Assembly: GCA_002779995.1 (NCBI GenBank) | Contig: PEWX01000030.1 | Location: forward strand, 21,249-85,248 | Direction: 5' to 3' | Length of the DNA: 64,000 nucleotides | Origin: Piscirickettsiaceae bacterium CG07_land_8_20_14_0_80_44_28 | GTDB taxonomy: Bacteria > Pseudomonadota > Gammaproteobacteria > Thiomicrospirales > Thiomicrospiraceae | Shown: positions 2,548-60,841 of the stretch, one piece after another | Layout: every line of letters starts with the position of its first letter | Position numbering within the stretch: the first letter of the stretch is position 1 | Translations under genes and position numbers: made by a program | The notes under the pieces: model-generated | Told to the model about the DNA's origin: nothing | What the model saw: only the letters and a program-made list of their open reading frames with translations | Database searches by the model: none

Positions 2548-2557
2548 CCAGGCCTGG
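2548..2557 (+). repeat. CCAGGCCTGG copy 1 (intergenic)
   Basis: aaaatggCCAGGCCTGGtgattttta. Confidence 0.97.
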
Positions 2558-2662
2558 TGATTTTTATCAGCACTATGAGCTCAGTTGACAAATCAATAAA
2601 TTTTGACTTTCAGCAAAAGAAATGTATTATCTGTGATACATGTATTACATAAAGGATACGCC

Positions 2663-2872
2663 ATGTTAACCGTGCGACTAGACCGTGAAATGGAAGATTT
2701 TTTAAAAGCCCTTTCGGAAGAAACCCATCGCCCTAAAAGTTTTTTTGTTAAACAAGCCTTAAAAAACTATCAAGAAGATATGCAAGACTGGCTTGAAGCA
2801 CAAAAACGTGCCAATGCGCCTGATCGCAATTTAATCAGTTTGCAAGAATTGGAAAATGCGCTTGGACACTAA
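2663..2872 (+). CDS. RelB/ribbon-helix-helix-type antitoxin
   Basis: MLTVRLDREMEDFLKALSEETHRPKSFFVKQALKNYQED..., RHH-like N-terminus; overlaps the downstream RelE-like ORF by 17 bp. Confidence 0.8.
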   Translation: MLTVRLDREMEDFLKALSEETHRPKSFFVKQALKNYQEDMQDWLEAQKRANAPDRNLISLQELENALGH

Positions 2873-3140
2873 TCCAGTTTATCAGTTGGTTTTTGATGAC
2901 AAGGTCATTAAAGACCTCAAAAAAATTGATAAGTCTTGGCAACGCAAAATTCTCAACGCCATTCAAACCAAACTAACAACCAACCCTTATGCTGGCAAAA
3001 AACTTGTCGGCGACCTATCCCCTTTCTACAGACTACGCGTTGGCGACTATCGGGTGATTTATGAAGTGGTCGAACAAACTATCGTCATCAATATCATACG
3101 GATGCGTCATCGTAAAGACGTCTATTTAAAAGAGTCATAG
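2856..3140 (+). CDS. RelE/ParE-family toxin
   Basis: YQLVFDDKVIKDLKKIDKSWQRKILNAIQTKL...LVGDLSPFYRLRVGDYRVIYEV...RHRKDVY, typical RelE fold signature. Confidence 0.88.
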   Translation: MRLDTNPVYQLVFDDKVIKDLKKIDKSWQRKILNAIQTKLTTNPYAGKKLVGDLSPFYRLRVGDYRVIYEVVEQTIVINIIRMRHRKDVYLKES

Positions 3141-3155
3141 CGGAAATTTAAGCGC

Positions 3156-3165
3156 CCAGGCCTGG
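3156..3165 (+). repeat. CCAGGCCTGG copy 2 (between convergent relE and arfB)
   Basis: agcgcCCAGGCCTGGtgattttaaa. Confidence 0.97.
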
Positions 3166-3180
3166 TGATTTTAAAGGGGT

Positions 3181-3600: not shown

Positions 3601-3609
3601 AATGATTGG

Positions 3610-3774: not shown

Positions 3775-3849
3775 TAAAACGGCAAAAACTTATAAAAAAA
3801 GCGACTCTAACTGGCCGCTTTTATCATTCAATTGAAATGAGCAGACAGC

Positions 3850-4665
<816 letters not shown>

Positions 4666-4681
4666 CTATCTTTTCAGAGGG

Positions 4682-5833: not shown

Positions 5834-5857
5834 AGTCACTTAAGTCTTTTTTTAAAA

Positions 5858-5931
5858 TTAGTATTCAAAAAAGCGCCTTTTTTGCCAGGCCTGGTTGTTT
5901 TTGAACAAACAAAAGCCCTTTTGAATACTAA
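5858..5931. repeat. Imperfect long hairpin (13-bp perfect inverted arms) in the dnaK-dnaJ spacer enclosing a CCAGGCCTGG copy
   Basis: ttagtattcaaaa (5858-5870) and ttttgaatactaa (5919-5931) are perfect inverted repeats. Confidence 0.8.
5885..5894 (+). repeat. CCAGGCCTGG copy 3 (dnaK-dnaJ spacer)
   Basis: ttttttgCCAGGCCTGGttgtttttga. Confidence 0.97.
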
Positions 5932-8701: not shown

Positions 8702-8795
8702 TTTGGGTTCTCCAGAATTGATAATTTGAAATCAGAGGATATATAAGGACACTTTTTTAGCTTTCAAGCAATCCGTCGTTTTTTTAAAAAAATGG

Positions 8796-8805
8796 CCAGG
8801 CCTGG
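8796..8805 (+). repeat. CCAGGCCTGG copy 4 (hrcA-grpE spacer)
   Basis: aaatggCCAGGCCTGGccgttttatg. Confidence 0.97.
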
Positions 8806-8817
8806 CCGTTTTATGGA

Positions 8818-10883: not shown

Positions 10884-10922
10884 ACCAAGACAGATTTACA
10901 TACAATAAGACTCTAAAAATCA

Positions 10923-10932
10923 CCAGGCCTGG
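10923..10932 (-). repeat. CCAGGCCTGG copy 5 (nadK-recN spacer)
   Basis: minus: ttttggCCAGGCCTGGtgatttttag. Confidence 0.97.
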
Positions 10933-10963
10933 CCAAAATTCATTGAGATTAATTGAGAAAACC

Positions 10964-12628
10964 ATGTTACAAGAACTCTCTATTCAAAACCTCGCACTGA
11001 TTCAATCGTTACAACTCCCCTTTAATAAAGGCTTTACCACCTTAACGGGTGAAACGGGTGCGGGTAAATCCATTTTATTGGACGCGCTGGGTTTAGCACT
11101 GGGCGAGAGAGCGGATAGCAGTTTGGTGCGCCATGGAACCGATAAAGCCGATGTGACTGCCGATTTTGACATTACCAAATTGCCGACAGTACAAGCCTGG
11201 TTAATCGACAATGAATTAGAAGATGCAGACAGTTGTTTACTAAGGCGAACGCTGACTGCCGAAGGGCGTTCCAAAGCGTATATTAATGGTCGCCCTGCGT
11301 CTGTTAGCCAACTCAAACAACTCAGCAGCTTGCTGATTGATATTCATGGTCAACATGAACACCAATCACTCATGCACCCACCCAAACAACTGGAACTGTT
11401 GGATGCCTATGCGCAACACCCAACCTTATTAGAAACCACCGCCCAAAACTACCAGGCCTGGCAAAAACTGAACCACACCTTGCAAAGCCGACTGGCAGAT
11501 CAATCGGATCGTCAAAGCCGTATTGAACTGTTAGCCTTTCAACAACAGGAATTTGATCGCATTCAGCCGCAAGCCGGTGAATTTGAAATGCTCGCCGAAG
11601 AGCAAAACACCCTGTCTCATGCCAGTGAAATCAAACAGGCGGTTTACAACGCTTATGAACAGCTTGAAGGCGATAAGGGCATTGTTGAACAGCTCAACCA
11701 AACCCTATCTGAATTGAGCAAAGCCAGTGAATACAGCCCGCAACTGGCAGAAGCGCTACAACAACTCGAATCGATTCAAATCGATGTTCAAGCGGTGGCT
11801 GACGACATACAACACCAAAATAACCAAGTCAGCTTAGACCCGGATCGATTACAACAGGTGGATGAACGACTGACTGAACTGTTTGGTCTGGCCAAAAAAC
11901 ACCTATTAGACCCGAATGCCTTAACCCAAAAACATCAAGAAATTAATGCCGAATTAGCCTCCCTAAATAATGAGGATGCCTCGCTGGAACACCTTCAACT
12001 CAAGATTGACCAGGCCTGGCAAGTCTTTATGAACAGTGCACAAGCCCTAACAAAATCTCGCCAAACCGCAGCGCAACACCTCAGTAAAACTGTCACCCAA
12101 GCCATGCAAACGCTGGGGATGCCACATGGACAATTTGACATTAGCCTGAATGAAGCAACCAAACCATCACGTTTGGGACAAGACCAAGTGCAATTTAACG
12201 TCACCGCCAATAAAGGCCAACCCTTGCAACCCTTGTCCAAAGTGGCATCGGGGGGTGAACTGTCTCGCATTAGCCTGGCCATTCAAGTGGCGAGTGCCGA
12301 AGTGGCCAGTTTACCGTCAATGATATTTGATGAGGTTGATGTCGGCATCGGCGGCGGCATTGCCGAAGTAGTGGGGCAAAAAATGCAACAACTCGGCCAG
12401 CATCGCCAAATCTTTTCGATTACCCATCTTGCACAAGTGGCGGCTTATGGTGACCAGCAGTTAAGCATCCAAAAACAAACTCAAAAAGACCAAACGCTCA
12501 CCCAAGTCACCGAACTGAGCCCCAAAGAAAGGGTCGAAGAACTCGCCCGCATGCTCGGCGGAGTCACCATTACCGACTCAACCCTGCAACACGCCCAAGA
12601 AATGCTCGATACCGCACAACATAAATAG
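10964..12628 (+). CDS. recN: DNA repair protein RecN
   Basis: MLQELSIQNLALIQSLQLPFNKGFTTLTGETGAGKSILLDALGLALGERAD...; contains two CCAGGCCTGG copies encoding QAW. Confidence 0.97.
   Translation: MLQELSIQNLALIQSLQLPFNKGFTTLTGETGAGKSILLDALGLALGERADSSLVRHGTDKADVTADFDITKLPTVQAWLIDNELEDADSCLLRRTLTAEGRSKAYINGRPASVSQLKQLSSLLIDIHGQHEHQSLMHPPKQLELLDAYAQHPTLLETTAQNYQAWQKLNHTLQSRLADQSDRQSRIELLAFQQQEFDRIQPQAGEFEMLAEEQNTLSHASEIKQAVYNAYEQLEGDKGIVEQLNQTLSELSKASEYSPQLAEALQQLESIQIDVQAVADDIQHQNNQVSLDPDRLQQVDERLTELFGLAKKHLLDPNALTQKHQEINAELASLNNEDASLEHLQLKIDQAWQVFMNSAQALTKSRQTAAQHLSKTVTQAMQTLGMPHGQFDISLNEATKPSRLGQDQVQFNVTANKGQPLQPLSKVASGGELSRISLAIQVASAEVASLPSMIFDEVDVGIGGGIAEVVGQKMQQLGQHRQIFSITHLAQVAAYGDQQLSIQKQTQKDQTLTQVTELSPKERVEELARMLGGVTITDSTLQHAQEMLDTAQHK
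11452..11461 (-). repeat. CCAGGCCTGG copy 6 (in recN)
   Basis: minus: agtttttgCCAGGCCTGGtagttttgg. Confidence 0.97.
12010..12019 (-). repeat. CCAGGCCTGG copy 7 (in recN)
   Basis: minus: gacttgCCAGGCCTGGtcaatcttg. Confidence 0.97.
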
Positions 12629-17455: not shown

Positions 17456-18126
17456 TAATCCACGACCTCTGCAAGCAACTGCGTCAATCGAGTGTGGATT
17501 TGCGCTTGGACGTTGCTGAGTGGTTGCGACGCATCTAAAACTTGATAACGCGCCGGAGCCTGATGCGCACGATACAAATAGGCACTGCGTACTTTTTCAA
17601 AAAATGCGGCTTGTTCTTGTTCAAACCGGTCAATGGCTTGTCCCGTCAGATTTGAGCGTGCAGCCACTCGACGCAATCCCTCTTCAATCGGCAAATCAAA
17701 TACAAAGGTCATTTCCGGAACAAACCCTTGTTGCACCCAATCTTCCAGTTGTGCAATACGCTGATAATCCATGCCTCTTGCCCCCCCCTGATAAGCATAA
17801 GACGCATCGGTAAAACGATCTGAAACCACCCACTTTCCGTCGGCAAGCGCCGGTAAAATAATTTGTTGTATATGTTGATTGCGTGCGGCGAACATCAACA
17901 GTAATTCGGTTTCTACCGTCATTTCATTATAGTTTGGATCCAATAAGATCTGCCTAACCGCTTCACTGATCGGCGTTCCGCCCGGTTCTCGAGTCACAAC
18001 CACCTCTAAGCCTTTGTCCTGCAACCACTGCTGAATAAAAACCAAATTCGTGGATTTCCCACCGCCTTCTGTTCCCTCAAGGGTAATGAATTGACCAGGC
18101 CTGGATTGATGTGTGTGTGTTGTCAT
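17455..18126 (-). CDS. tmk: Thymidylate kinase
   Basis: GQFITLEGTEGGGKSTNLVFIQQWL...VVTREPGGTPISEAVRQILLD...DRFTDASYAYQGGARG. Confidence 0.97.
   Translation of the reverse strand: MTTHTHQSRPGQFITLEGTEGGGKSTNLVFIQQWLQDKGLEVVVTREPGGTPISEAVRQILLDPNYNEMTVETELLLMFAARNQHIQQIILPALADGKWVVSDRFTDASYAYQGGARGMDYQRIAQLEDWVQQGFVPEMTFVFDLPIEEGLRRVAARSNLTGQAIDRFEQEQAAFFEKVRSAYLYRAHQAPARYQVLDASQPLSNVQAQIHTRLTQLLAEVVD
18095..18104 (-). repeat. CCAGGCCTGG copy 8 (in tmk)
   Basis: minus: catcaatCCAGGCCTGGtcaattcatt. Confidence 0.97.
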
Positions 18127-18156: not shown

Positions 18157-19164
18157 TTAATGGCGCTTTAAAAGATACTTTTGCACTGCTTTATTATGTT
18201 CTTCCAAGGTTTTGGAAAAAACATGCTGACCTTGACCCGATGCGACAAAATAGAGTGCCTCGGTGGTTGCAGGATTCATAACCGCCCTGATGGCATCTTC
18301 ACTGGCCAATGCAATGGGCGTCGGAGGCAACCCATTAATACGATAGGTATTGTAAACGGTTTTGGTCAGCAAATCCTTTTTGCGAATATTGCCATCATAC
18401 GCCTCTCCCATGCCATAAATCGTGGTTGGGTCAGACTGCAATCGCATGCCTTTACGAAGCCGATTGATAAACACCCCTGCAATCATCGGTCTCTCTGGCG
18501 CATAACCAGTTTCTTTTTCAACAATGGATGCCAAAATTAACGCTTCATAAGGATTTTTTAAGGGTAAATTCGACGCGCGATTTTCCCAGGCCTGCTTCAA
18601 CAGCTGATTTAACGATTGATGGGAACGGCGGATAATCGACATCGCCGTTTCATTTGCTGAATAAAAATAGGTTTCCGGTAATAACTGACCTTCCAAAGGC
18701 ACGGACAGCCCTAGCGCTTTCTCAATGGCCTCCGGCGACATTAAATCGACCTCAAATCGCATTTTGGTGGACCCCGCCAAACGAGCCAATGCCTGTTGAA
18801 CCGTTTCACCTGCAATAAAAGTAACCGGATAGGTAACCGTTTTACCCTGAACCAAAGCGTCAATCAATTCCGGCAAAGTCCACTGTGGTTGTATTTCGAT
18901 TTCGCCGGCCTTAATCGATTCCGCTTGTCCTTGCCATTTTAATACCCAAACTAACCAATCGGGATGACGAATTAACCTCGCCTCATACAGTAAGTTAGCA
19001 ACTTTTTTAGCGGAGCTGCCGGATGCAATAGACACCACCTTAGGCGACTGCAAGGCTGAAATCGGTTGTGTGATAAACTGTTTAAAACTCCAGCCTTCCA
19101 CGCTCAACCAAATCACAAACACACTGGCGGCAATCGTTAATATAAACGTTTTGGTTTTTTGCAT
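18157..19164 (-). CDS. mltG: Endolytic transglycosylase MltG
   Basis: ALILASIVEKETGYAPERPMIAGVFINRLRKGMRLQSDPTTIYGMG...YNTYRINGLPPTPIA. Confidence 0.96.
   Translation of the reverse strand: MQKTKTFILTIAASVFVIWLSVEGWSFKQFITQPISALQSPKVVSIASGSSAKKVANLLYEARLIRHPDWLVWVLKWQGQAESIKAGEIEIQPQWTLPELIDALVQGKTVTYPVTFIAGETVQQALARLAGSTKMRFEVDLMSPEAIEKALGLSVPLEGQLLPETYFYSANETAMSIIRRSHQSLNQLLKQAWENRASNLPLKNPYEALILASIVEKETGYAPERPMIAGVFINRLRKGMRLQSDPTTIYGMGEAYDGNIRKKDLLTKTVYNTYRINGLPPTPIALASEDAIRAVMNPATTEALYFVASGQGQHVFSKTLEEHNKAVQKYLLKRH
18586..18595 (-). repeat. One-mismatch copy (in mltG)
   Basis: CCAGGCCTGc on plus; minus gCAGGCCTGGgaaaatcg. Confidence 0.7.
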
Positions 19165-19172: not shown

Positions 19173-19988
19173 CTAAGGTTGGGTCAAGTTTTGAGCCTGC
19201 CATTTTTGCCAGGCCTGGGCAATTTGGCGAGTTTTTTCGGAGTCATACCCCTGTTGTTGAAATTGCATAACCGGCATGACCCCCCTCACCGCATTACAGC
19301 AGAAGATTGCTTCTGCCTGATAGACCTCGTCCAAACTCACAGGGCGAATCTGCCATTGCCACTGAGTGTTTTTCAACGCCCTTGGCAAGCTTGACAAACA
19401 GGTTCCCATAACACCACTCCTGCTCAGTTCAGGGGTAATTAATTGATTGTCTTTAATCAAAACAAGATTGGCTTGAGTGGCCGAAATCACCTCACCTTGC
19501 GGGTTCAACATTACAGCTTCATCAAAGCTCGACCCGATTAATGCCTCTCTGGCCATCACATTCTCTAAACGATTACAATGTTTCAATCCGGCCAATAAAG
19601 GCTGATCGGCACACCTAATGGCTGAAAGGGTCATTTTAACGCTAAAAAATGGCCAGGCCTGGTCATTTTTTAGCCCATTTGGAAAAGCTAGCTTCTGAAC
19701 ATAAATAATGGGGTGAGGCTTGGGTAATGGCTGATAACCCAGACCCCCCAACCCACGACTCACCAATATTTTGATCACCGCATAGTCTTCATCTGTGTCA
19801 ACCAACTCTGCTGCGATTTGACACAATAGTTTTGGCTCTGATAACGGCGGAAACTTTAACCTTTGCGCACTCAATTGCAAACGTTGCCAATGAGCCGACC
19901 AATTAACCAATTGCCCCGATTGCACCAACACAGTGGTAAAAAACCCATCACCATATAACAAACCTCTATCGAGCTGCTGACTCATCAA
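19173..19988 (-). CDS. pabC: Aminodeoxychorismate lyase
   Basis: RGLLYGDGFFTTVLVQ...; PLP fold-type IV, adjacent to pabB and mltG; contains two CCAGGCCTGG copies. Confidence 0.92.
   Translation of the reverse strand: MMSQQLDRGLLYGDGFFTTVLVQSGQLVNWSAHWQRLQLSAQRLKFPPLSEPKLLCQIAAELVDTDEDYAVIKILVSRGLGGLGYQPLPKPHPIIYVQKLAFPNGLKNDQAWPFFSVKMTLSAIRCADQPLLAGLKHCNRLENVMAREALIGSSFDEAVMLNPQGEVISATQANLVLIKDNQLITPELSRSGVMGTCLSSLPRALKNTQWQWQIRPVSLDEVYQAEAIFCCNAVRGVMPVMQFQQQGYDSEKTRQIAQAWQKWQAQNLTQP
19209..19218 (+). repeat. CCAGGCCTGG copy 9 (in pabC)
   Basis: atttttgCCAGGCCTGGgcaatttgg. Confidence 0.97.
19653..19662 (+). repeat. CCAGGCCTGG copy 10 (in pabC)
   Basis: aaaaaatggCCAGGCCTGGtcattttttag. Confidence 0.97.
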
Positions 19989-28700: not shown

Positions 28701-29378
28701 CTATCTCACCAGATAAGGAGAAACCCGTTTTTTTAACCAGGCCTGCATGCTTATCAAGTCATCAAAAGTCGCGACGGGCTGATAAGACTGCAAAACTTCC
28801 AAATCATGCACACCATGACTTAAAGCAACACGATCCATCCCAATAACTTGAGCCATTTTCATATCATACTTGGTATCCCCCACCATCACCGCTTGCTCAA
28901 CACTCAAACCCAACGCCTCTAAAATTTGCTGCAACATTAATGGACTAGGCTTGGACTCAGCCTCCACCGGCGTGCGTGTAATATCAAAATAATCGGTATA
29001 GGCCAATTCAGTCAAAACATGATCCAAGCCCCGCCGACTCTTTCCCGTTGCAATGGCTAACTTAACGCCTGAGGATTTAAGACCCTGCAATAATACTTCA
29101 GCCCCCTCAAAAGGCATCATTGGTACCGACGATTGATTTAAAAAACACGCTGTATAGCTTTTTGCCATTAATGCAATGGCTTCATCTGACGCCTCTGGAT
29201 AAAGGGATAAAATGGCTTTATCCAAACTCAAGCCAATAATTTGCTTAGATTCATCGTAAGATAAAATAGGTAACTGTGCTTGCTGCGCTGCCACCTGAAT
29301 CGAGGCCACAATCCGTGCCTCAGAATTCATTAAAGTACCATCCCAATCAAAAATCACACATTGATATTGAGGTCTCAT
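28701..29378 (-). CDS. HAD-family hydrolase (phosphoglycolate phosphatase-like)
   Basis: CVIFDWDGTLMNSEARIVASIQ...AIATGKSRRGLD...MVGDTKYDMKMAQ; overlaps rluC by 4 bp. Confidence 0.9.
   Translation of the reverse strand: MRPQYQCVIFDWDGTLMNSEARIVASIQVAAQQAQLPILSYDESKQIIGLSLDKAILSLYPEASDEAIALMAKSYTACFLNQSSVPMMPFEGAEVLLQGLKSSGVKLAIATGKSRRGLDHVLTELAYTDYFDITRTPVEAESKPSPLMLQQILEALGLSVEQAVMVGDTKYDMKMAQVIGMDRVALSHGVHDLEVLQSYQPVATFDDLISMQAWLKKRVSPYLVR
28737..28746 (-). repeat. One-mismatch copy (end of HAD hydrolase gene)
   Basis: CCAGGCCTGc on plus; minus gCAGGCCTGGttaaaaaaac. Confidence 0.7.
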
Positions 29379-33392: not shown

Positions 33393-33421
33393 AAAAACGG
33401 CCAGGCCTGGCCGTTTTTCTC
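33393..33421. terminator. Bidirectional terminator-like hairpin built on CCAGGCCTGG between convergent rne and the PTP gene
   Basis: AAAAACGGCCAGGCCTGGCCGTTTTT perfect 26-bp palindrome. Confidence 0.75.
33401..33410 (+). repeat. CCAGGCCTGG copy 11 (terminator between rne and PTP gene)
   Basis: aaaaacggCCAGGCCTGGccgttttt. Confidence 0.97.
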
Positions 33422-38194: not shown

Positions 38195-39085
38195 TTAACC
38201 GCGGGGATGATGTTGTTGATGAATTTTTTGCATTCGAGCCTGAGCAACGTGAGTATAGATTTGTGTTGTCGACAGGTCGGCATGACCCAACAATAATTGC
38301 ACTGTTCGTAAGTCCGCACCATGATTAATCAAGTGGGTTGCAAAGGCATGGCGCAAACTGTGAGGCGATAAATTAACATCAATGCCGGCAATCATTGCTA
38401 ATTTTTTAATTCGATGCCAAAGCGTCTGACGCGTCATCGTTCGTCCAATCCGAGAAACAAATAAGCTATCGATCCATTTACCAACGGGAACAAGGGCAGG
38501 CCTGGCGGTTTTTAGATAGTTTTCTAAGGCCTCAATCGCCATTTCTCCCAAAGGGACAATACGCTCTTTATTCCCTTTTCCGGTCACCTGCACCAAACCG
38601 GCAGAGAGATTTAACTGTTCAAATGGCAAACTCACAACTTCTGAAACTCTTAAACCGGAAGCATACATTAGCTCCAAAATTGCCTTATCTCGACATCCTA
38701 AAGGGGTTTGTAAATCAGGCGCTCGCAATAAAGCGTCAACTTGCGCTTCCGAAATCACTGTAGGAATCGATTGAATTAAAGCCGGTGCCTTTAATAGCGC
38801 CACAGGGTCTTCTGCTGAGGGATTTTGCAGGCACCAATATCGGTAAAAGCGTTTTAACGAAGATAAACTACGCGCAATGGAACGGGCGTTGGTTTGTCCT
38901 AAGTGTTTTTCTAACAAAAAAGATTCTATTTGCTCGGTGCTCGCCTGACTTAAATCAACGGGCAATACTTTCTGAACCGCCTTTAAATCGCGTTCATAAG
39001 CCGCTAAGGTATTGTCACTTAGGCCTTCGTTAAAACGACAGTAGTCAATAAAGGCACGGATTTCCGGCGTGTTTTTTAAGGTCAT
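38195..39085 (-). CDS. xerD: Site-specific tyrosine recombinase XerD
   Basis: IRAFIDYCRFNEGLSDNTLAAYERDLKAV...ELMYASGLRVSEVV...HSLRHAFATHLINHGADLRTVQLLLGHADLSTTQIYTHVA. Confidence 0.95.
   Translation of the reverse strand: MTLKNTPEIRAFIDYCRFNEGLSDNTLAAYERDLKAVQKVLPVDLSQASTEQIESFLLEKHLGQTNARSIARSLSSLKRFYRYWCLQNPSAEDPVALLKAPALIQSIPTVISEAQVDALLRAPDLQTPLGCRDKAILELMYASGLRVSEVVSLPFEQLNLSAGLVQVTGKGNKERIVPLGEMAIEALENYLKTARPALVPVGKWIDSLFVSRIGRTMTRQTLWHRIKKLAMIAGIDVNLSPHSLRHAFATHLINHGADLRTVQLLLGHADLSTTQIYTHVAQARMQKIHQQHHPRG
38496..38505 (+). repeat. One-mismatch copy (in xerD)
   Basis: gCAGGCCTGGcggtttttag. Confidence 0.7.
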
Positions 39086-41362: not shown

Positions 41363-42829
41363 CTATTCAGTGCTTTCGGAATGATCGACTTCAGAAGGGG
41401 TCTTTGTGACAGGTTTTAATAAAGCGCTGCCTTCAGTGACCGCTAATAAATGCTCGGGGAGTTCTTTTTTGGTTTTGCCCGCCAAATCCTTCAGCATTTC
41501 AGCTTGCCTGACCAAATTACCATTCCCGCTGGACATTTGCTTAAACGCCTGTTGATAGCTGTTTTGAGCTGAATTCAGCTGTTTGCCAACCCTTTCGAAG
41601 GTCTCAACAAACCCAACAAACTTATCATGAACCTCTGCGGCTCGCTTAATTAATTTAACAGTGTGTTCCGATTGCCGCTCATAACGCCATAATTGTTCGA
41701 TGGTTTTTAGCGTGGTAAACAAAGTGGTGGGGGTTACCACGGCCACCCTTTTGTCAAATGCCTGCTCAAAAATGGCTGATTGATCTTCAATCGCCATCAT
41801 ATAGGCGCCTTCTATCGGAATAAACATCAACACAAAATCAGGGGCATTCAACCCCTCAATATGATCATAGCGCTTATTTGATAACGCCTGTATGTGTTTA
41901 CTTAAACTCTGTATATGCGCTTTAACTTGCCGATTTTTTTCAACCTCATTTTCCGCATTTAATGCCGCTTCATAATTTAATAACGACACTTTTGAATCAA
42001 TGATCACCTGCTTATTATCCGGCAAGTTTATAATGACATCGGGGCGTAATCGCTTACCATCGGCTTGGGTAAAGCTTTTTTCTGATTCAAACTCAATGCC
42101 CTCTCGTAATCCTGAAGACTCAAGCAGCTTATGTAAAATTAACTCTCCCCAATTGCCCTGTAACTTTTGATCGCCTTTCAATGCTTTGGTTAAATTTTTC
42201 GCCTCCACACTCATGGTCTGATTCAATTCACGTAGCGCTTTCAATTGTTCCGTCAAAGAGGCTCGCCCTTCCAAATCCTCTTTATGAACATGTTCTATAC
42301 GCGCCTTAAACTGTTCTAAAGTCGCTTGCATAGGCTGCACCAATCCATTAATGGCTTCTTTGCTTTGCAACCCCATTTGTTGCTGCTTCTGTTCTAAAAT
42401 TTCGTTTGAAAGTACCTTAAACTCTTGCGTCAGCGTTTCCTTAGCCGACTGAAGCAAAGCCATTTTTTCATCGGCACTTTTTCGCTCTGCATCTAAACGA
42501 CTGTTCACGCTTGCTAATTCAGACTGCGCTTGGTTCAGCTGATCATTTAATGCACGATAATCTTGTTTCGCCTCATCTAATTGTTGATGAAGTTTTTCCA
42601 GTTGTTGAGATTGTTGTTTAAATTCACCTTGCAGCGGATATAAAGTAGCAAGTTGCTCCGTTAAGCGCACATTTTCCTGCTGCAATTGTTGGTTTTGCGC
42701 GTCCAAAACGGCCAGGCCTGGTTGTTTTTGGCGCCATTGTCGATTTTCTCGATACTGAATCGCCCCCCAAATAAGCGCGAATCCCAAAGCCAGAGGCCAC
42801 AGCCAGTCCATTATCATCATGACCGACAT
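41363..42829 (-). CDS. rmuC: DNA recombination protein RmuC
   Basis: Coiled-coil N-terminus; GNWGELILHKLLESSGLREGIEFE...LRPDVIINLPDNKQVIIDSKVSL. Confidence 0.94.
   Translation of the reverse strand: MSVMMIMDWLWPLALGFALIWGAIQYRENRQWRQKQPGLAVLDAQNQQLQQENVRLTEQLATLYPLQGEFKQQSQQLEKLHQQLDEAKQDYRALNDQLNQAQSELASVNSRLDAERKSADEKMALLQSAKETLTQEFKVLSNEILEQKQQQMGLQSKEAINGLVQPMQATLEQFKARIEHVHKEDLEGRASLTEQLKALRELNQTMSVEAKNLTKALKGDQKLQGNWGELILHKLLESSGLREGIEFESEKSFTQADGKRLRPDVIINLPDNKQVIIDSKVSLLNYEAALNAENEVEKNRQVKAHIQSLSKHIQALSNKRYDHIEGLNAPDFVLMFIPIEGAYMMAIEDQSAIFEQAFDKRVAVVTPTTLFTTLKTIEQLWRYERQSEHTVKLIKRAAEVHDKFVGFVETFERVGKQLNSAQNSYQQAFKQMSSGNGNLVRQAEMLKDLAGKTKKELPEHLLAVTEGSALLKPVTKTPSEVDHSESTE
42712..42721 (+). 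repeat. CCAGGCCTGG copy 12 (in rmuC)
   Basis: caaaacggCCAGGCCTGGttgtttttgg. Confidence 0.97.
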
Positions 42830-46776: not shown

Positions 46777-46785
46777 ACAACACTC

Positions 46786-48468: not shown

Positions 48469-50480
48469 CGAACTGTCTCCACCAGATATTGGTTAATGGC
48501 TAATAGCCTCGACTTAATTTGCTGTTGAAGCCGAGGATTGTCATCACGCGTTTTAGCCAGTGCCTGCTCATAGTAAGTCTTCGCCAAATCATACTGCCCC
48601 AATCGATCGAGCGATACCGCTAAATTATGCGCATAATGGCCATTTTCAGGGGCTAATTGGTAGGCTTTAAAATAATATTTTTGAGCATCGACCCAATTTT
48701 GATTACGTGCGAACTGATGACCCAACGCCGAGGATAAGGGGGCTGCTTTCGGGAAACGCTGCATTAAATCTTGTAACTTTCTAACAATACCCACCTCATT
48801 ATTCATTGAAGCTTGCAAGCTCGCTTCCGCAATTAACGCATCTGCATTATTCGGGCTTGCTTTCAAAATCTTTTGATACAGTCTTAACGCTTTTTGCGAC
48901 TCCCCTTTTTTGGCAGCCGTTGCCGCCAAACCAAACAAAACCGGTAAACTTTCCGGATCGGCCTGATAGGCTTGTTGATAATAAGACTCAGCCGCTGCGA
49001 AGTCTCCCTTGCGATAGGCTTGATAGCCATCATAAACTTCGGTATTTGGCTTCAAAGCTTCAATATGCAATTTAGGGTTGCTCGCAGCGGTTTTTTGTAA
49101 CGTCTTGCCGGCGGCAAGGTGATTGTTTCGATCCGCATTGGCATCAGGCGTTTTTTTATCTGGTTTTGCTATTTTTTTGACAGGCACTTTTGTTGAATTT
49201 TTTACGGTCTCTTCCGCTAACTCTTTTGCCATTTTTTGACCCGCCGTCAGCTTTTCGGAATTCGCTTGTTGATGATTTGCTGAATCAGCGTCCAGCACAC
49301 TATTAGTCATGGGGGACGTATCGCCAGATTGCTGAACAGATTGATCTTGCTGCTGTAAGGATTGCGAAGCCTTAAGGACGGTATTATCCTCACCGGAAGA
49401 AGGTTTGTTAACGGGCAAGGTCTTTTGGGTGAGGGACTGATAAGGTCGTAAGGCTTGATCCACTAATAAGGCTTCACGCTCATAAACGGTTAACCCATAA
49501 TATCCCAACCCCACCACCACAAGCACAGCGAGCAACCCCCACCAATGTTTGATTGAAAAAACAGCATTATTTGTTTTTGGGGATAACGTCGTTTGCAACA
49601 CATTTTGCATCCGCGCTTGATCTTCTTTAACAGAAGAATCGGATTGTTGATACCCGGGGATTTGATCCAAACTCCATTGTTCTGACTGCGTTGAGTCCGT
49701 TGGCGCATGACCAGAACCCCCAGATTCAGCACGCCCCGGAGAGGCTGTGGCATCAGGCTCGGCTTGCTGATCAGTAACCTTTAGAGACAAATCGGCTGAT
49801 GGCGAATCCCCCTCATTTAATGCTAAGCTGGTTTCTAAATCCAAACGCGGTTGCGATTGCGACTCAACGTTATCTCCGGCCATTTTCAAGACATTGAATT
49901 CAGTGTTCTCCACACTCGTTGACAAGTCGTCTTGCTCAATGGCTTCGGTCTTGTTCTGAAGGTTCAAAACTGCGTTAGGGGTTTCTTTGACAGGGGTATT
50001 ATCACTTTGATTTAAGGCGCCATGAGGTTTTTCACCCGCCATTGACCCTTTCGGCTGAAGTTCAGGTGAATTCGGGGCTTCATCTGTTGCTGCTGACAAA
50101 TCGCTCATCGATGAGTCTGCTGCTTCAGAGGGCTCACTTTCATCGGTTAAAGGCGCTATATGTGCTTCGTTAAGTGGGTCTTCTATTGTGATGTCGTCGA
50201 CAAAATTCAAATCGACCCCCTCATTCAAATGCGCTGATTCTTCTTTTTCATCTGCTAAAGGAGACACCGCCATTTCTGGCGAAGCATCCATTCCTTCAGC
50301 AAAATTAAGTTGAAAAGGGGATTGTTTCGGCTCGGTATCGGATGATAAGGACGGACTCAGGTCACGACCGGCAGTGCGTTCATCTTGATCAACTTTTACA
50401 GGAGAACCTTTTAATGACGCGCCACCTTTTTTTTGTTTTTCTTCTGCAGCTTTTTTTAGGGCAGCTAATAATGCACTCAT
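48465..50480 (-). CDS. TPR-repeat pilus biogenesis protein, MshN-like
   Basis: N-terminal acidic region, one TM (HWWGLLAVLVVVGLGYYGLTVY), C-terminal TPRs; overlaps mshE by 4 bp. Confidence 0.75.
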   Translation of the reverse strand: MSALLAALKKAAEEKQKKGGASLKGSPVKVDQDERTAGRDLSPSLSSDTEPKQSPFQLNFAEGMDASPEMAVSPLADEKEESAHLNEGVDLNFVDDITIEDPLNEAHIAPLTDESEPSEAADSSMSDLSAATDEAPNSPELQPKGSMAGEKPHGALNQSDNTPVKETPNAVLNLQNKTEAIEQDDLSTSVENTEFNVLKMAGDNVESQSQPRLDLETSLALNEGDSPSADLSLKVTDQQAEPDATASPGRAESGGSGHAPTDSTQSEQWSLDQIPGYQQSDSSVKEDQARMQNVLQTTLSPKTNNAVFSIKHWWGLLAVLVVVGLGYYGLTVYEREALLVDQALRPYQSLTQKTLPVNKPSSGEDNTVLKASQSLQQQDQSVQQSGDTSPMTNSVLDADSANHQQANSEKLTAGQKMAKELAEETVKNSTKVPVKKIAKPDKKTPDANADRNNHLAAGKTLQKTAASNPKLHIEALKPNTEVYDGYQAYRKGDFAAAESYYQQAYQADPESLPVLFGLAATAAKKGESQKALRLYQKILKASPNNADALIAEASLQASMNNEVGIVRKLQDLMQRFPKAAPLSSALGHQFARNQNWVDAQKYYFKAYQLAPENGHYAHNLAVSLDRLGQYDLAKTYYEQALAKTRDDNPRLQQQIKSRLLAINQYLVETVR

Positions 50481-50485
50481 ATCAA

Positions 50486-52204
50486 TTAATTGCTTTGGGT
50501 TTGCATAAAGGGTTTGAGCCCTTGTAAATCGCCATGATTCACATCCGGGTTATAAACGATAATAGGACGAATGAAAATAATCAGCTCTGATTTCGTCACC
50601 CGATCATCACGATACGAAAAAAGGTCTCCTAACCAAGGAATTTGACTTAACCCGGGTATACCCGTCCGACTCTTATCGTTGGTATCTTGAATTAACCCGC
50701 CAATAATGGCCGTTTGGCGATTTCGCAACCTCAGCACGGAATCCATCTCCCTTTCCTGAATAATCGGTACTTGACTGACCACATTCTCACGGGCGAGATC
50801 TGGGTTAGGATCATTCACATACCCGACAATTCGGGACAAGGTTGGCCGAATATTTAAAGAAATTTCATCTTCACTGATAAAAGGAGTGACGTGCATCATA
50901 AAACCAACCGGAACCGTATGGACAGTGGTTTCAAAAGTAGTGATACCGGCACTCGTTGCGGTTGCGGTTTCGCGATTGACATCAACCGTAAAATAGACTT
51001 CATTATTGACGACCTTTAATAAAGCCGCTTGATTATTCATGGCCATAATTTTAGGACTGGATAGCACCTTGGCATCGCCAAATTGCTGTAACATTTTAAT
51101 GCCTAAGTTAAAGTTCCAATCCCCTAAACTCGACACATTGACTGAAAAGTTTGGATTGGTTGATAAATTGGTTCCCAATAAATTTTGGCCAATATCTGAC
51201 GTTCCCTGCGCCGTGGATTTGAGAGCGCTCCAATCCACACCCGCTTGATACTGGTCGCTCAACTCCACCTCTATGACCGTCGCCTCAATTAAAACCTGCT
51301 TATTGGTTCGGTGTAAAATGGTTTGCAAATAACGTTGAATTTGTTGATGTTGGTTGTCCGTGGTATAAACGGTCAACATTCCCGCTTCTTTATTGGTCAT
51401 CACATTGGTAAGCACCGAGGATTGCTCACCCTCAGTCGATGTCGCCTCTTCAGCGACATCTGTATTGGCGGTATCAGTTGTTTGTGTTGAAGCCGATTGG
51501 TTTTCGAGCCGAGCCATCGCAGAAATATTGGTTTTTAAGGTTTGCCAAAAATCATGGGTTGCCGAAGACTCCAATGTAAATTTGCTGGCATCCTCACCCG
51601 AACTGCTCGCTGTTCCGGCGACATTGCCAACAGACATTTTCATCACCGTTAAATCATTTATGTGTTTAACGACATTAACATAATCAATTTCATAACTTTT
51701 CCAAAAGGGTTGATCTAAGCGAACCTTTATCGTATTGCCGACCACTTCATAAATAGCCCCCACTTGTTGAACAACGCGTTGCATAATAGGCTCTAAAGGT
51801 TGGTCAATGGCATTAATGGATATATTGCCTTGCACATTAGCGGCCAAGTCGAGTTGCATACCGGCATCCTTGGCTAAATTAAATAATAAATCACCCACCG
51901 GCACATCAATCGCCGAAACGCTATAGCGTTTGGGAGGGGTGAATTGACTCGGGTCAATATTAATCGCTTCCATGGTCACTAAATCAGGAATGGACGCTAT
52001 ACTCTCCCCGGAATCTGCTAGCGATTGCTCAGGCGACAAATGTCCCTTCACCTCAAATTGCTTGGCGACTTTGGGAGCCAAAGGCTCTCTTTTAACCGAT
52101 TCCGCGCCACTACAACCAATCAAAAGCGTCACGATTAAAAAAACACCAAAGCCCATGCTGACTTTAAAAAATGGGAATATTTTATTCATAGATACTGTTT
52201 TCAA
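50486..52204 (-). CDS. mshL: Secretin, MshL/PilQ family
   Basis: Lipoprotein-like signal (LLIGCSG); VLIEATVIEVELSDQYQAGVDW; VPIIQEREMDSVLRLRNRQTAIIGGLIQD...GIPGLSQIPWLGDLF. Confidence 0.93.
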   Translation of the reverse strand: MKTVSMNKIFPFFKVSMGFGVFLIVTLLIGCSGAESVKREPLAPKVAKQFEVKGHLSPEQSLADSGESIASIPDLVTMEAINIDPSQFTPPKRYSVSAIDVPVGDLLFNLAKDAGMQLDLAANVQGNISINAIDQPLEPIMQRVVQQVGAIYEVVGNTIKVRLDQPFWKSYEIDYVNVVKHINDLTVMKMSVGNVAGTASSSGEDASKFTLESSATHDFWQTLKTNISAMARLENQSASTQTTDTANTDVAEEATSTEGEQSSVLTNVMTNKEAGMLTVYTTDNQHQQIQRYLQTILHRTNKQVLIEATVIEVELSDQYQAGVDWSALKSTAQGTSDIGQNLLGTNLSTNPNFSVNVSSLGDWNFNLGIKMLQQFGDAKVLSSPKIMAMNNQAALLKVVNNEVYFTVDVNRETATATSAGITTFETTVHTVPVGFMMHVTPFISEDEISLNIRPTLSRIVGYVNDPNPDLARENVVSQVPIIQEREMDSVLRLRNRQTAIIGGLIQDTNDKSRTGIPGLSQIPWLGDLFSYRDDRVTKSELIIFIRPIIVYNPDVNHGDLQGLKPFMQTQSN

Positions 52205-53689
52205 TTAAAGGTTATTTCCTGATTGTTTTAACTGCTGTATTTTGAGTTGCAAATTGGCAAGGGGGTTAATTTGCCAGGCTTTAATTTGAGAAACTGAGAT
52301 TAAATCCTGCTGCTTTTGTTGTAACCCTTTTAAATCGGTAATACGCGGATCATATATCAATTGATATTGATACACTTTATTCGTCAAGTCCACTTCAAAC
52401 AAAGCGAAAAGATAGCGTCGATTGGTTAAATAGAGCCGACTTTTGATTTGATGATAAATTTTATCAAAGGTCGCAATGGGCATCGGTGCCATGACAATAA
52501 AAAGCGCCTGTGGGGATTTCGCTTGCAGATGCGCTTGGGTTTTTTGTTGTAAATCAGCCATTTCAACCAATTGAGACAAGGGAATATTTAAGGTGCTTGC
52601 CAAATCACTGGGGCGATAAAGTCCGACATCGGCGCTTTTATCAAATTTGTCGGCAACACCATCGGTTGCAACCGATGGCTTAGACGGCTCAAAATCGGCC
52701 AGGCCTGGCGGTTTTTCAGGCGCTGAAAACTCCTCAGACGCGATTAAATCCGGCTGTGCCAATAAATTGAACCAGGTGACTTTTATCGGTAACAATACAA
52801 CCGTTATAATGGCTACCAGTGCCACTATCGCAACCATCATCCAGCCGCCTTTTCGCTTAAATGGTTTACCCGTAGCCATTGACGGTAGGTCATATTCCGA
52901 CAATAAGTTTTTAAAGTGCTGTGGCTTGAGTTTATTGTCGCCCTTTGAAAAAGCCACCATTAGCAACTTATCGGCCAACAAATTTATCGATCTCGGTAGT
53001 CCTTGCGTTAACTGTTGAATACGACGCGCCAGTTTTAACGTAAATAAATCCTGCCCCATATAACCCGCCACTCGCATTCGATAATTCAAGTACTGCATCA
53101 CCTCTTCTGCCTTGAGGGCGGGGATGGCGACACTGCAAGCAATCCGATCTTTAAGCGGCTTAACACGTGGGTCGTTTAACGTTAGATCCAATTCCGGTTG
53201 ACCAAACAACACAATTTGCAGCAACTTATCCTCACCCGTTTCTAAATTACCCAATAGACGAATTTCTTCTAAGGTATCCAGCGTCATCGCTTGAGCTTCA
53301 TCCACCAACATGACCACCCGTCGATTTTGTGCATATTCCGACAACAGAAACTGATTAAGTCGATTCATCAGATCCAATTTGGTATCGCTGGCTAAGGTTT
53401 CAATGCGCAACTCTGAGCAAATAAATTTCAGAAAATCTATTGAAGAAAGGTTTGGTGACGAAATATAAATTTTTTGATAGGAATCAGCGAGTTTTTCAGC
53501 CAGCAATCTCAATAAGGTGGTCTTGCCCACACCCACTTCACCCACGACTTTAATAATGCCATCCCCGCGCTCTATCGAATACAAAAGTGCGTGCGCAATA
53601 TCATCACGAGCTGCATGGGTATAAAAAAAACTTAAATCAGGAGATATTTTAAAGGGAAGTTTCTTTAAGCCGAAAAACGAGCAATACAT
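52205..53689 (-). CDS. mshM: AAA ATPase of the MshM/ExeA type
   Basis: MYCSFFGLKKLPFKISPDLSFFYTHAARDDIAHALLYSIERGDGIIKVVGEVGVGKTTLLRLLAE; one TM and a periplasmic C-terminal part. Confidence 0.88.
   Translation of the reverse strand: MYCSFFGLKKLPFKISPDLSFFYTHAARDDIAHALLYSIERGDGIIKVVGEVGVGKTTLLRLLAEKLADSYQKIYISSPNLSSIDFLKFICSELRIETLASDTKLDLMNRLNQFLLSEYAQNRRVVMLVDEAQAMTLDTLEEIRLLGNLETGEDKLLQIVLFGQPELDLTLNDPRVKPLKDRIACSVAIPALKAEEVMQYLNYRMRVAGYMGQDLFTLKLARRIQQLTQGLPRSINLLADKLLMVAFSKGDNKLKPQHFKNLLSEYDLPSMATGKPFKRKGGWMMVAIVALVAIITVVLLPIKVTWFNLLAQPDLIASEEFSAPEKPPGLADFEPSKPSVATDGVADKFDKSADVGLYRPSDLASTLNIPLSQLVEMADLQQKTQAHLQAKSPQALFIVMAPMPIATFDKIYHQIKSRLYLTNRRYLFALFEVDLTNKVYQYQLIYDPRITDLKGLQQKQQDLISVSQIKAWQINPLANLQLKIQQLKQSGNNL
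52699..52708 (+). repeat. CCAGGCCTGG copy 13 (in mshM)
   Basis: aaaatcggCCAGGCCTGGcggtttttca. Confidence 0.97.
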
Positions 53690-57265: not shown

Positions 57266-57296
57266 AACTAAGATCCTCCGTTTGTTCCAAAAATGG

Positions 57297-57306
57297 CCAG
57301 GCCTGG
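57297..57306 (+). repeat. CCAGGCCTGG copy 14 (upstream of ilvB)
   Basis: caaaaatggCCAGGCCTGGttatttttac. Confidence 0.97.
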
Positions 57307-57357
57307 TTATTTTTACCGGCATAACTCCAGATTGGAATAAAAATTGAGTCAAAAACA

Positions 57358-57382: not shown

Positions 57383-57489
57383 ACCCCCTATATTTTGGGG
57401 CTAATTGGTAATTATAACCAAATCAAATGGTTTTATAAAGCATCAACCCCGAATTAATCGCAGTCGCCCTTTGCTTAAAATCGGTCTCT

Positions 57490-58044
57490 TTATGCTTGAA
57501 AATCAGACAGGAATAAATGGCGGCGATAATGTTTCAATTCATCAATGGATTCATAAATATCATCCAACGCCAAATGGGCACCTTTTTTCTGGTGACTAGA
57601 ATAAACTGTTGGTGCCCAGCGTTTGGCCAACTCTTTCAACGTAGACACATCGAGGTTACGATAATGGAAAAAAGCCTCTAACGTCGGCATCTGTTCAATC
57701 AAAAACCGCCTATCCTGACAAATGCTGTTGCCACACATGGGCGATTTCCCTTTCGGCACCCAAGGCTTCAAAAATTCGAGGGTTTGCAATTCTGCATCCT
57801 TCATTGACACTTGGCTGGCTTGTACCCGAGCCGTCAACCCTGAATTGCCATGATGCGTCCTACACCACTCGTCCATACCCTCCAAATAATGCTGCTCGGT
57901 TTGGATCGCGATCACCGGCCCTTCAGCCAATGTATTCAATTCTAAATCGGTCACCACGGTTGCAATTTCGATAATCTGATCGGTCTTGTGATCCAACCCC
58001 GTCATTTCCAAATCAATCCAAATAAGGTTATTGTCTGATTTCAT
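57490..58044 (-). CDS. orn: Oligoribonuclease
   Basis: [47 protein letters not shown]. Confidence 0.97.
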
Positions 58045-58177
58045 TCTGCTGCCTACTGCCATCGTTGATATTATGCGCTATCTTAAACCTTATTGCCACG
58101 CGCCACAATCCAAGCATAGCCATTGAATTTTTTTTCATAACATGGGATAGTAGCCTTTTTTAAAATGAAACGCTTAT

Positions 58178-59443
58178 ATGAATCTCATTACCCCTCTTTT
58201 TATGCTTGCTTTATTACTCAATCTGGTGATTGAAGTTTGGTTAAATATTAAAAACCAGTTCCACATCAGCAAACACCAACACCAAGTGCCCGAAGACTTC
58301 AGCGATGTGGTCAGTTTAGACGCCCACCAAAAAGCAGCAGCCTACAGTCGCGCCAAACTCCAACTCGGGCGTTTTGTGTTATTTTTTGATGCGGCTGTGC
58401 TCGGTTTTATGACGCTCGGCGGGGGGTTTCAGGATATTTACCAACTGTGGCTCAATAGCGATTTTTCTCCGATCTGGCGTGACGTCGGCTTTTTATTATC
58501 AACCTTCTGGTTTTTATCACTGCTTCACTTACCTTTTAGCCTGATCAGCACCTTTAAAATTGAAGAAGCCTTTGGGTTTAATAAAATGACACCACTGAAA
58601 TTTATCTCTGATTTACTCAAACAGTGGGCGCTTATGCTGGCAATCGGTCTGCCTTTAATTTGGGTGATTTTAACCATTATGGATGGCTATTTTGACCAGG
58701 CCTGGTGGTTTTACACCTGGTGTATTTGGTTGGCCTTCAATTTAATTTTGCTGTGGGCTTATCCCAAATGGATTGCCCCCATTTTTAACAAATTCACCCC
58801 ATTAGAAGAGGGTGAGATGAAACAACGTATTGAAGCGCTACTGGCGAAAACCGGTTTTCAATCCAATGGCATTTTCGTCATGGATGGTTCCTCGCGTTCA
58901 GGGCACGGCAATGCCTACTTCACCGGATTTGGCAAAAACAAGCGGATTGTGTTTTTTGATACGCTATTGGAGACGCTGACCCCCGAAGAAGTCGAAGCCG
59001 TGCTGGCGCATGAACTGGGGCATTTTAAACACGGTCATATTCGCAAACGCCTATTAAAATCCTTCGCCCTCAGCTTTATCGGTTTAGCTTTTCTAGGCTG
59101 GCTTGCACAGCAATCTTTGTTTTACACAGGTCTTGGCATCACCACCGAAACCCCTGCTGCCGCCCTGCTATTATTTTTAACGGCGGTTCCCGTCATGTTC
59201 TTTTTTCTAGGCCCCATCAGCGCCTTTCAAAGTCGTAAACACGAATTTGAAGCCGATGCCTTTGCGGTCAAAACCACCGGCGCTGCGCCCTTAATCTCTG
59301 CATTATTAAAGATGTATCGAGACAATGCCAGTAGTTTAACCCCCGACCCGCTTTATTCAAGCTACCATGACAGCCACCCGCCGGCTAAAATTCGAATTGA
59401 CCACTTAAAACGATTACAGGAAAGCGAAGATGACGCAGCTTAG
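58178..59443 (+). CDS. M48-family (Ste24/CAAX protease-like) membrane metallopeptidase
   Basis: VEAVLAHELGHFKHGHIRKR (HExxH), FEADAFAV; multiple TM segments. Confidence 0.94.
   Translation: MNLITPLFMLALLLNLVIEVWLNIKNQFHISKHQHQVPEDFSDVVSLDAHQKAAAYSRAKLQLGRFVLFFDAAVLGFMTLGGGFQDIYQLWLNSDFSPIWRDVGFLLSTFWFLSLLHLPFSLISTFKIEEAFGFNKMTPLKFISDLLKQWALMLAIGLPLIWVILTIMDGYFDQAWWFYTWCIWLAFNLILLWAYPKWIAPIFNKFTPLEEGEMKQRIEALLAKTGFQSNGIFVMDGSSRSGHGNAYFTGFGKNKRIVFFDTLLETLTPEEVEAVLAHELGHFKHGHIRKRLLKSFALSFIGLAFLGWLAQQSLFYTGLGITTETPAAALLLFLTAVPVMFFFLGPISAFQSRKHEFEADAFAVKTTGAAPLISALLKMYRDNASSLTPDPLYSSYHDSHPPAKIRIDHLKRLQESEDDAA
58696..58705 (+). repeat. CCAGGCCTGG copy 15 (in M48 peptidase gene)
   Basis: ttttgaCCAGGCCTGGtggttttaca. 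Confidence 0.97.
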
Positions 59444-59780
59444 TACAAACATTCCCTTAAAAGACCAACGTTGCCAGACCCTTATCAAAGGCAACAAACC
59501 GATGATTATCCCGCGCATTGAAACCCTGCTAACGGAACTGGATGATTGGGAAATTCCACTGGACTACAAAACCCTCGTGAAAACCTTTCCGTTTAAAAAC
59601 TATCACCAAACCGTTGCCTTTGTAAACGCCGTGACTTGGGTGGCGCACAAAGAAGACCATCACCCGGAAATCTGCTTCGGGTATAATCAATGCCAAATCA
59701 CCCTCACCACTGCTTCCGTGAAAGGACTCAGTGAAAACGACTTCATTTTGGCGGCCAAAATAGATGCATTACTTGATTAA
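59430..59780 (+). CDS. phhB: Pterin-4a-carbinolamine dehydratase
   Basis: FPFKNYHQTVAFVNAVTWVAHKEDHHPEICFGYNQCQITLTTASVKGLSENDFILAAKID. Confidence 0.92.
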   Translation: MTQLSTNIPLKDQRCQTLIKGNKPMIIPRIETLLTELDDWEIPLDYKTLVKTFPFKNYHQTVAFVNAVTWVAHKEDHHPEICFGYNQCQITLTTASVKGLSENDFILAAKIDALLD

Positions 59781-59794
59781 ACAGTCTTTCTAAA

Positions 59795-60841
59795 ATGGCA
59801 AAACGCAAACTGAGCCATCAGCAACACCGCAGGGTGAAGCAAAAACAACAAACCGAACGGGATCAATCCGCACCTTCTACCCCGTCACTCACGCCCAATC
59901 CGAATGAAGCACTTGGCGAAAAACAACCAGGCCTGGTCATTACCAACTTTGGCAAACGTCTACTGATTGAAGATGACAATGGCCAACTCCACCGCTGTGC
60001 CGTTCGCCAACATCTTAATAAACTGGTTGCAGGCGACCGCGTCACCTGGCAAACCGATCGAGAAGCCAATACCGGCGTGGTGATTGCCGCCGAACCGCGC
60101 AGCCATGAACTGAGTCGCCCCGGCTTCCGAGGACAAAAACGCATGGTCGCCGCCAATATTGACTGGCTCGGCATTGTCAGCGCGATTGAGCCGGGTGTAC
60201 ATCCCGATATGATTGATCGCTATTTGGTGGCGGCACAACAACTGGATTTACCGGTACTGATCCTCATTAATAAAATTGATTTAATCCAATCCGATGAACA
60301 ATGGGAACTGCTAGCAGAACAACTATTGCCTTATGAAGAAATGGGACTGGAAATCCTGCCGATTTCGGCAACTTACGGCGAAGGCATGGACACGCTTCGT
60401 GAACATCTTCGACAGAAGAACAGCGTTTTTGTCGGTCCTTCGGGCGCAGGTAAATCGTCGCTGATCCAAACCCTGATTCCCGACCTTGAAATCAAAACCA
60501 ACCAATTATCCGAATCCTCGGGGCTTGGCAAGCACACCACCACCAACAGTATTTTGTACCATCTTCCCAGTGAAAACGGTGAAGCGGCCGGCAATATTAT
60601 TGACTCCCCCGGTGTCCGCCAATTCAGCCCAACCCCCTGTGAACGCCACGAACTGGAACAATACTATCCAGATTTTGAACCCTTCTTAGGCCAATGCAAA
60701 TACCATAACTGCACCCACACCATCGAACCCAAATGTGCGATCAAAGACGCCGTTGAATCGGGAGAACTGCATTATTCCCGCTACCAAAGCTTCCAGAGAT
60801 TGCGTGAAGAATTTGAACAAGCCCTGCATCCAACGCATTAA
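59795..60841 (+). CDS. rsgA: Ribosome small-subunit-dependent GTPase A
   Basis: AKRKLSHQQHRRVKQKQQ...FVGPSGAGKSSLIQTLIPD...GKHTTTNSILYHL...IDSPGVRQF (circularly permuted GTPase). Confidence 0.97.
   Translation: MAKRKLSHQQHRRVKQKQQTERDQSAPSTPSLTPNPNEALGEKQPGLVITNFGKRLLIEDDNGQLHRCAVRQHLNKLVAGDRVTWQTDREANTGVVIAAEPRSHELSRPGFRGQKRMVAANIDWLGIVSAIEPGVHPDMIDRYLVAAQQLDLPVLILINKIDLIQSDEQWELLAEQLLPYEEMGLEILPISATYGEGMDTLREHLRQKNSVFVGPSGAGKSSLIQTLIPDLEIKTNQLSESSGLGKHTTTNSILYHLPSENGEAAGNIIDSPGVRQFSPTPCERHELEQYYPDFEPFLGQCKYHNCTHTIEPKCAIKDAVESGELHYSRYQSFQRLREEFEQALHPTH
59927..59936 (+). repeat. CCAGGCCTGG copy 16 (in rsgA)
   Basis: aaacaaCCAGGCCTGGtcattacca. Confidence 0.97.

Follow-up and report, generated by a model that had tools for sequence, protein, structure and literature searches.

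Abundance of the palindrome in the window and source genome

The 64,000-nucleotide stretch of contig PEWX01000030.1 analyzed here (the window) belongs to the genome of a vent-type sulfur bacterium of the genus Hydrogenovibrio, the closest named locus being from Hydrogenovibrio sp. SC-1, and carries, within genes as well as in the spacers between them, 16 exact copies of the palindrome CCAGGCCTGG, where dinucleotide shuffles lead one to expect 0.04. An earlier note on this DNA had reported these copies, and each lies where it was placed (Table 1); the three one-mismatch copies it listed are likewise present and are the sole ones in the window.

The note had further proposed that the excess is genome-wide. 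The source genome (G000; 2,279,771 bases, or 2.28 Mb, in 122 contigs) contains 404 copies of CCAGGCCTGG and none of the same pattern read backwards, and the enrichment is therefore not limited to the window. In a 279-kb sample of G000, from which the detailed site statistics for the source genome are drawn, 54 sites were counted where an order-2 Markov model predicts approximately 0.25, and the remaining 29 of the 30 palindromes with equal half-site composition have one copy each at most. The sites are spread through all sampled parts of the chromosome. Both comparisons suggested by the note, with a Markov expectation and with palindromes of the same composition, thus bear out a genome-wide signal.

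Structure of the repeat unit

Alignment of all sampled copies extends the palindrome to a unit of approximately 26 bp, AAAAAYRR-CCAGGCCTGG-YYRTTTTT, beyond which no longer flanks common to the copies were found. Each of the positions from -8 to -5 is A in 69-82% of copies, the T tract mirrors this, and the tract centers lie approximately 10.5 bp, or one helical turn, to either side of the dyad. Copies within coding sequence retain the tracts (4.29 of 5 A/T versus 2.81 expected); the unit is therefore a DNA-level signal and its tracts are not just the U-tracts of terminators. Exact copies exceed one-mismatch copies (54:11, 40:19 and 48:21). Such an over-sharp consensus is an oddity common to the DNA uptake sequences (DUS) of Neisseriaceae and the uptake signal sequences (USS) of Pasteurellaceae and is unlike the binding sites of regulators (Redfield and colleagues, PMC1626085).

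A dimeric DNA-bending protein would suit the dyad symmetry and the spacing of the A/T tracts by one turn, and occurrence throughout all sampled parts of the chromosome would also favor a target site for some abundant DNA-binding protein of the chromosome (for nucleoid organization, segregation or repair), in other words an architectural motif with co-evolving specificity, similar to the highly iterated palindrome HIP1 of cyanobacteria. This is the main rival to the DNA uptake signal favored below, and it is judged unlikely; the over-sharp consensus already counts against it.

Distribution and dialects across the family

A survey of 63 genomes of the family, in line with the note's suggestion that relatives be compared, revealed a signal that is patchy and differs in sequence between relatives. 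CCAGGCCTGG exceeds 100 copies in 27 of the 63, with a maximum of 856, and is near zero in most others, a split that falls within genera. Seven genomes of the source genus possess 367-677 copies, while G001, G003, G007, G008 and G011 have 0 or 1. G001 and G011 possess instead the motif AAAATCTGCCAGGTTGGGG, which keeps the A-tract and the CCAGG half and is non-palindromic, and G003 possesses CTGCCAGGCTGGG; at one homologous place a swap of dialect is seen, with CTGATTTAATTCAGCCAGGCCTGGCCGTTTTT in G000 and CTGCTTTAAATCTGCCAGGCTGGGTCTTTTTT in G003. Within genus g3 the dialects are TACCAGGCCTGGTA (G034), TACCGGCCGGTA (G032) and CAGGCCTG (G026), and ACCGGCCGGT reaches 1025 copies in G032 with no more than 15 in any other genome. 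No comparable over-represented motif was found in 60-100 kb samples of the motif-free genomes G058 and G063. The presence of three dialects in one genus, two of them non-palindromic, together with absence from other members, is hard to reconcile with an essential architectural protein.

Chi sites, which RecBCD/AddAB-type enzymes read as recombination signals, are short, abundant, lineage-variable and mainly chromosomal, and they are also non-palindromic and strand-polarized. The motif shares the first four of these properties. However, its main form is palindromic, and in its non-palindromic dialects the two orientations are similarly frequent (94/121, 101/124 and 123/130) without clear strand polarity, the dialect of G011 being unpolarized (54 of 101 in the first half) and that of G003 showing only a weak bias (58 of 94, p=0.03). 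Nor are A/T tracts at fixed offsets and enrichment at gene ends features of Chi. A Chi-like recombination signal is thus regarded as improbable, and a polarized Chi or KOPS-like signal is rejected for want of a consistent orientation bias.

A methylation or restriction-modification mark, as has been proposed for HIP1, is suggested by the core itself, since CCAGG plus CCTGG amounts to two abutting CCWGG (Dcm) sites, and by the link of HIP1 to orphan methyltransferases (PMC4390886). No C5 methyltransferase (PF00145, the only methyltransferase family searched) was found in motif-rich G004, G005, G006, G010, G032, G026 or G014 or in any g6 genome, and the PF00145 matches in G000 consist of only two fragments at contig starts. 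Because many motif-rich genomes are without a C5 methyltransferase, C5 (Dcm-type) methylation is rejected. The dialect ACCGGCCGGT contains no CCWGG, and methylation leaves the flanking tracts unexplained, such that a mark of this kind in general is given little credence.

Two other repeats were encountered among the sampled sequences. Stretches of G003 (L019, L033-L039) contain a block in which repeat units recur identically approximately 28 times (TCCGCGGCTAGGTC, CGGATGCCGA and others); this block, masked in the motif search, probably represents either an array or one large gene with tandem repeats. In L021 of G005 a sequence resembling CTGGTTCTGGTT occurs approximately 15 times, which probably marks a repetitive gene.

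Placement relative to genes

Gene calls were made with a simple hexamer-based caller, and density ratios are therefore approximate. In the sample of G000, genes contain 34 of the 54 copies (63%), which are mostly read as DQAW or QPGL and exceed expectation there more than 100-fold. Density per kb is nonetheless far higher in convergent spacers (4.47, approximately 34 times that in genes) than in tandem spacers (0.75), divergent spacers (0.19) or genes (0.13), and approximately one third of convergent gene pairs (7/22) contain a copy. The same holds in 6 of 7 genomes, in which convergent spacers contain 1.4-4.5 copies per kb, 5 to 60 times the in-gene density. The mapping by strand and gene end that the earlier note had recommended thus reveals enrichment at gene ends but no pattern by strand or relative to ori/ter, the latter a point against a chromosomal architectural protein.

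Many intergenic copies form a GGCC-looped hairpin between A's and T's that is usable on both strands, of the type AAAAAYGGCCA-GGCC-TGGCCRTTTTT. In G001 and G011 the non-palindromic dialect instead forms frequent close inverted pairs whose folding gives strong hairpins (at L044:9904/9925, for instance, of -25 to -26 kcal/mol), an arrangement described for DUS (PMC3630211) and one that a chromosomal DNA-binding protein leaves unexplained. The palindromic dialect obtains by one copy the structure that the non-palindromic dialect builds from an inverted pair.

The density between convergent genes and the folding of single copies as hairpins might suggest that the motif is the preferred intrinsic transcription terminator of the lineage and nothing more. 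As a whole explanation this is refuted by the 34 of 54 copies within genes, their more than 100-fold excess and their retention of the tracts; it is very improbable in that form, and termination remains as a secondary use.

Conservation of sites

Relatives that share the core (58-72% DNA identity) have it exact at 9 of 12 homologous sites, compared with a 4.1% baseline for other 10-mers, whereas none of seven is exact in relatives with another dialect. Copies are conserved in place across genera. Hydrogenovibrio sp. SC-1 keeps, at the homologous position, the exact core of the site at 33393..33418 and has also conserved the coding copy in rmuC (42704..42729), and the G011 spacer homologous to the site at 5877..5902 has the other dialect, CTGCCAGGTTGGGG. 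Some coding sites align without gaps to motif-free homologs (L016:8360 against G001, and the window sites with cores at 11452 and 12010), while 3 of the 7 other-dialect sites are gapped in alignment.

These observations bear on the idea that the copies are what is left of a repeat family or a small mobile element. Many identical dispersed copies would fit such an origin; however, the unit is only approximately 26 bp without longer common flanks, some coding copies replace residues gap-free, as at L016:8360, and copies are conserved in place across genera. A mobile repeat is rejected on these grounds, with scarcely any probability left to it.

A 97-kb contig of G056 contains the motif approximately 8-fold more rarely than the G056 chromosome (4 per 80 kb versus 48 per 118 kb). 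The contig appears to be plasmid-like, with primase-helicase and pilus/secretion genes on it. Depletion on such a contig is a published hallmark of uptake signals and would equally suit a chromosomal DNA-binding protein. Two DUF285 repeat proteins are encoded on this contig (L152) amid the pilus/secretion genes (T2SSF, secretin, T2SSE).

Competence machinery and receptor candidates

ComEC and ComEA are both present in 28 of 28 motif-rich near-complete genomes, while 6 of 20 motif-poor near-complete genomes are without ComEC, ComEA or both (p=0.003, not corrected for phylogeny); the comparison left out near-complete genomes with 24-44 copies, except G026. Pilins were found in all 16 genomes tested. 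To that extent, core machinery for DNA uptake would be available.

The pilin common to these 16 genomes is, over its first 45 residues compared by eye, much alike in G032, G026 and G056 despite their three dialects, and also in G034 and the motif-free G019. It therefore does not account for specificity and is unlikely as the specificity factor. PilT was also considered as a marker of motif presence and failed, motif-rich genomes without PilT having been found.

A DNA uptake signal as the favored interpretation

The earlier note left the class of the signal undecided among an uptake sequence, a HIP1-like motif and an architectural or segregation motif. The dialects, inverted terminator pairs, AT-rich flanks, over-sharp consensus, lack of clear strand polarity and lack of a link to C5 methyltransferases now narrow it towards something resembling an uptake sequence. 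From the published sequence hallmarks (over-sharp consensus, gene-end enrichment, terminator hairpins, AT-rich flanks, dialects and depletion on the plasmid-like contig), CCAGGCCTGG probably, though by no means certainly, forms the core of a DNA uptake signal that differs from species to species in Hydrogenovibrio and related genera of its family; these bacteria would be naturally transformable, and their family would be the third with such signals.

A type IV pilus or competence surface protein would bind a half-site, consisting of the A-tract and approximately CCAGG, on outside DNA; the tagged DNA, mostly from kin, would be drawn in via ComEA and ComEC and then recombined. Biased uptake of this kind would multiply perfect copies throughout the genome by point-mutation gain and gene conversion, and changes in the receptor would give rise to dialects. 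The palindromic dialect may be seen as two half-sites face to face, so that a single copy would be orientation-independent and a full bidirectional terminator hairpin, for which a non-palindromic dialect would need an inverted pair.

The likeness to DUS is extensive: short repeats in hundreds to thousands, dialects of sister species with a common inner core, many copies in genes, terminator-associated inverted pairs and some family members without the repeat (PMC3630211). It differs from DUS in its unrelated sequence and in being, in its main form, palindromic and flanked by A/T tracts. It resembles USS (PMC1626085, PMC12616744) in its short core with AT-rich flanks at helical-turn spacing, its excess of perfect over one-mismatch copies, its closely spaced opposite pairs, its subclade-specific types and its in-gene share (63%, versus 65% for USS); its core is unrelated to that of USS, for which PpdA/ComN is the receptor proposed, and the palindromic dialect is flanked on both sides. 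HIP1 (GCGATCGC) is also an abundant short palindrome without known function, but every case described has that one sequence, and HIP1 is linked to methyltransferases (PMC4390886). The core here is CCAGGCCTGG with its dialects rather than GCGATCGC, with A/T tracts and terminator enrichment, and PF00145, representing only the C5 type, is absent from many of the genomes rich in it.

Several observations weigh against an uptake signal. Many motif-free genomes likewise possess ComEC and ComEA, whose presence is therefore permissive only. PilT/PilU were not found in the motif-rich near-complete genomes G002, G010, G016, G023 and G083, though ComEA and ComEC are kept, nor in motif-rich G082 (83% complete); such genomes are a point in favor of a chromosomal DNA-binding protein. 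Near-complete g6 genomes without PilT have 263-316 copies versus 524-747 in those with it, which would suit decay once PilT is lost; in g1, however, copy number is highest in the pair without PilT. Although some Pasteurellaceae are reported to retain USS after recent inactivation of competence genes (PMC1626085), the missing PilT is a difficulty here. None of the 63 genomes has a match to the ComP_DUS model above cut-off, the GspH/FimT model matched only motif-poor G013, G019 and G072 and no motif-rich genome, and the common pilin, being alike across dialects, does not explain specificity. With approximately 250-1000 copies, the motif is also less numerous than DUS by the counts that PMC3630211 quotes. 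Lastly, spacing is more regular than random clearly only in G004 (coefficient of variation (CV) 0.68, P=0.0005) and not in G009 (CV 0.88, P=0.18) or the window (CV 1.08).

According to a 2025 paper, only Neisseriaceae and Pasteurellaceae are known to separate kin from foreign DNA by such motifs (PMC12616744). In the open-access literature found, neither the motif nor uptake sequences in this group are described, and novelty is provisional, subscription papers lying outside the scope of the search. That literature yielded nothing on Thiomicrospira uptake sequences, the 10-mer turns up in 49 open-access papers, of which the 20 listed concern other subjects to judge by their titles, and the H. 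crunogenus SP-41/XCL-2 genome paper makes no mention of the motif. The chances are about even that this is a third family in which sequence-coded self-recognition in uptake evolved independently. Its palindromic signals would also serve, each as a single copy, as bidirectional terminators; its dialects would number at least five, with switches between palindrome and half-site; and its receptor, being neither ComP nor FimT, might function in the absence of PilT.

If an uptake signal is confirmed, it would be a third case, in free-living sulfur-oxidizing bacteria outside animal hosts and with dialect changes within single genera; it would supply a further, independent instance in which to study the origin, switching and loss of uptake signals, and would make receptor-dialect co-evolution directly testable in strains that are harmless. 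Were uptake disproved, a dialect-forming 26-bp palindrome throughout the genome would be a still odder unexplained signal.

Sites in the window and neighboring genes

Table 1. Copies of the motif in the window, with the extent of each 26-bp site and its 10-bp core (ORF, open reading frame)
Feature	Position	Strand	Core	Hairpin (kcal/mol)
Intergenic site	2540..2565	.	2548-2557	
Between convergent predicted genes	3148..3173	.	3156-3165	
Spacer 3' of HSP70 gene and 5' of 4682-5839 gene	5877..5902	.	5885-5894	
Terminator-like hairpin 3' of hrcA	8788..8813	.	8796-8805	-13.0
Between NAD kinase gene and SMC/RecN-type gene	10915..10940	.	10923-10932	
Coding copy, SMC/RecN-type gene	11444..11469	.	11452-11461	
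Second coding copy, SMC/RecN-type gene	12002..12027	.	12010-12019	
Coding copy, thymidylate kinase gene	18087..18112	.	18095-18104	
One-mismatch copy CCAGGCCTGC	18586..18595	+		
Coding copy, ORF 19173-19988	19201..19226	.	19209-19218	
Coding copy, ORF 19173-19988, near-perfect 26-bp palindrome	19645..19670	.	19653-19662	
One-mismatch copy CCAGGCCTGC	28737..28746	+		
Hairpin between convergent genes, 3' of RNase E/G gene	33393..33418	.	33401-33410	-15.4
One-mismatch copy GCAGGCCTGG within xerD-type gene	38496..38505	+		
Coding copy in rmuC, read as QPGL	42704..42729	.	42712-42721	
Coding copy, AAA ATPase gene of MSHA-like pilus locus	52691..52716	.	52699-52708	
Hairpin between tandem genes, directly upstream of TPP-enzyme (IlvB-type) gene	57289..57314	.	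57297-57306	
Coding copy, M48 peptidase gene, read as DQAW	58688..58713	.	58696-58705	
Coding copy in rsgA, read as QPGL	59919..59944	.	59927-59936	

On the minus strand at 42829-53689, followed by rmuC, lies an MSHA-like type IV pilus or secretion assembly locus that includes an AAA ATPase, a secretin, a TPR protein, a GspE/PilB-type ATPase, a T2SSF protein and three unassigned genes, with no pilin genes seen in it. A HipA_C-domain protein is encoded at 60838-62019, adjoining rsgA and convergent with it, and the C-terminal part of a subtilase with a P-domain, together with a small secreted-looking protein, is found at 62476-63988.

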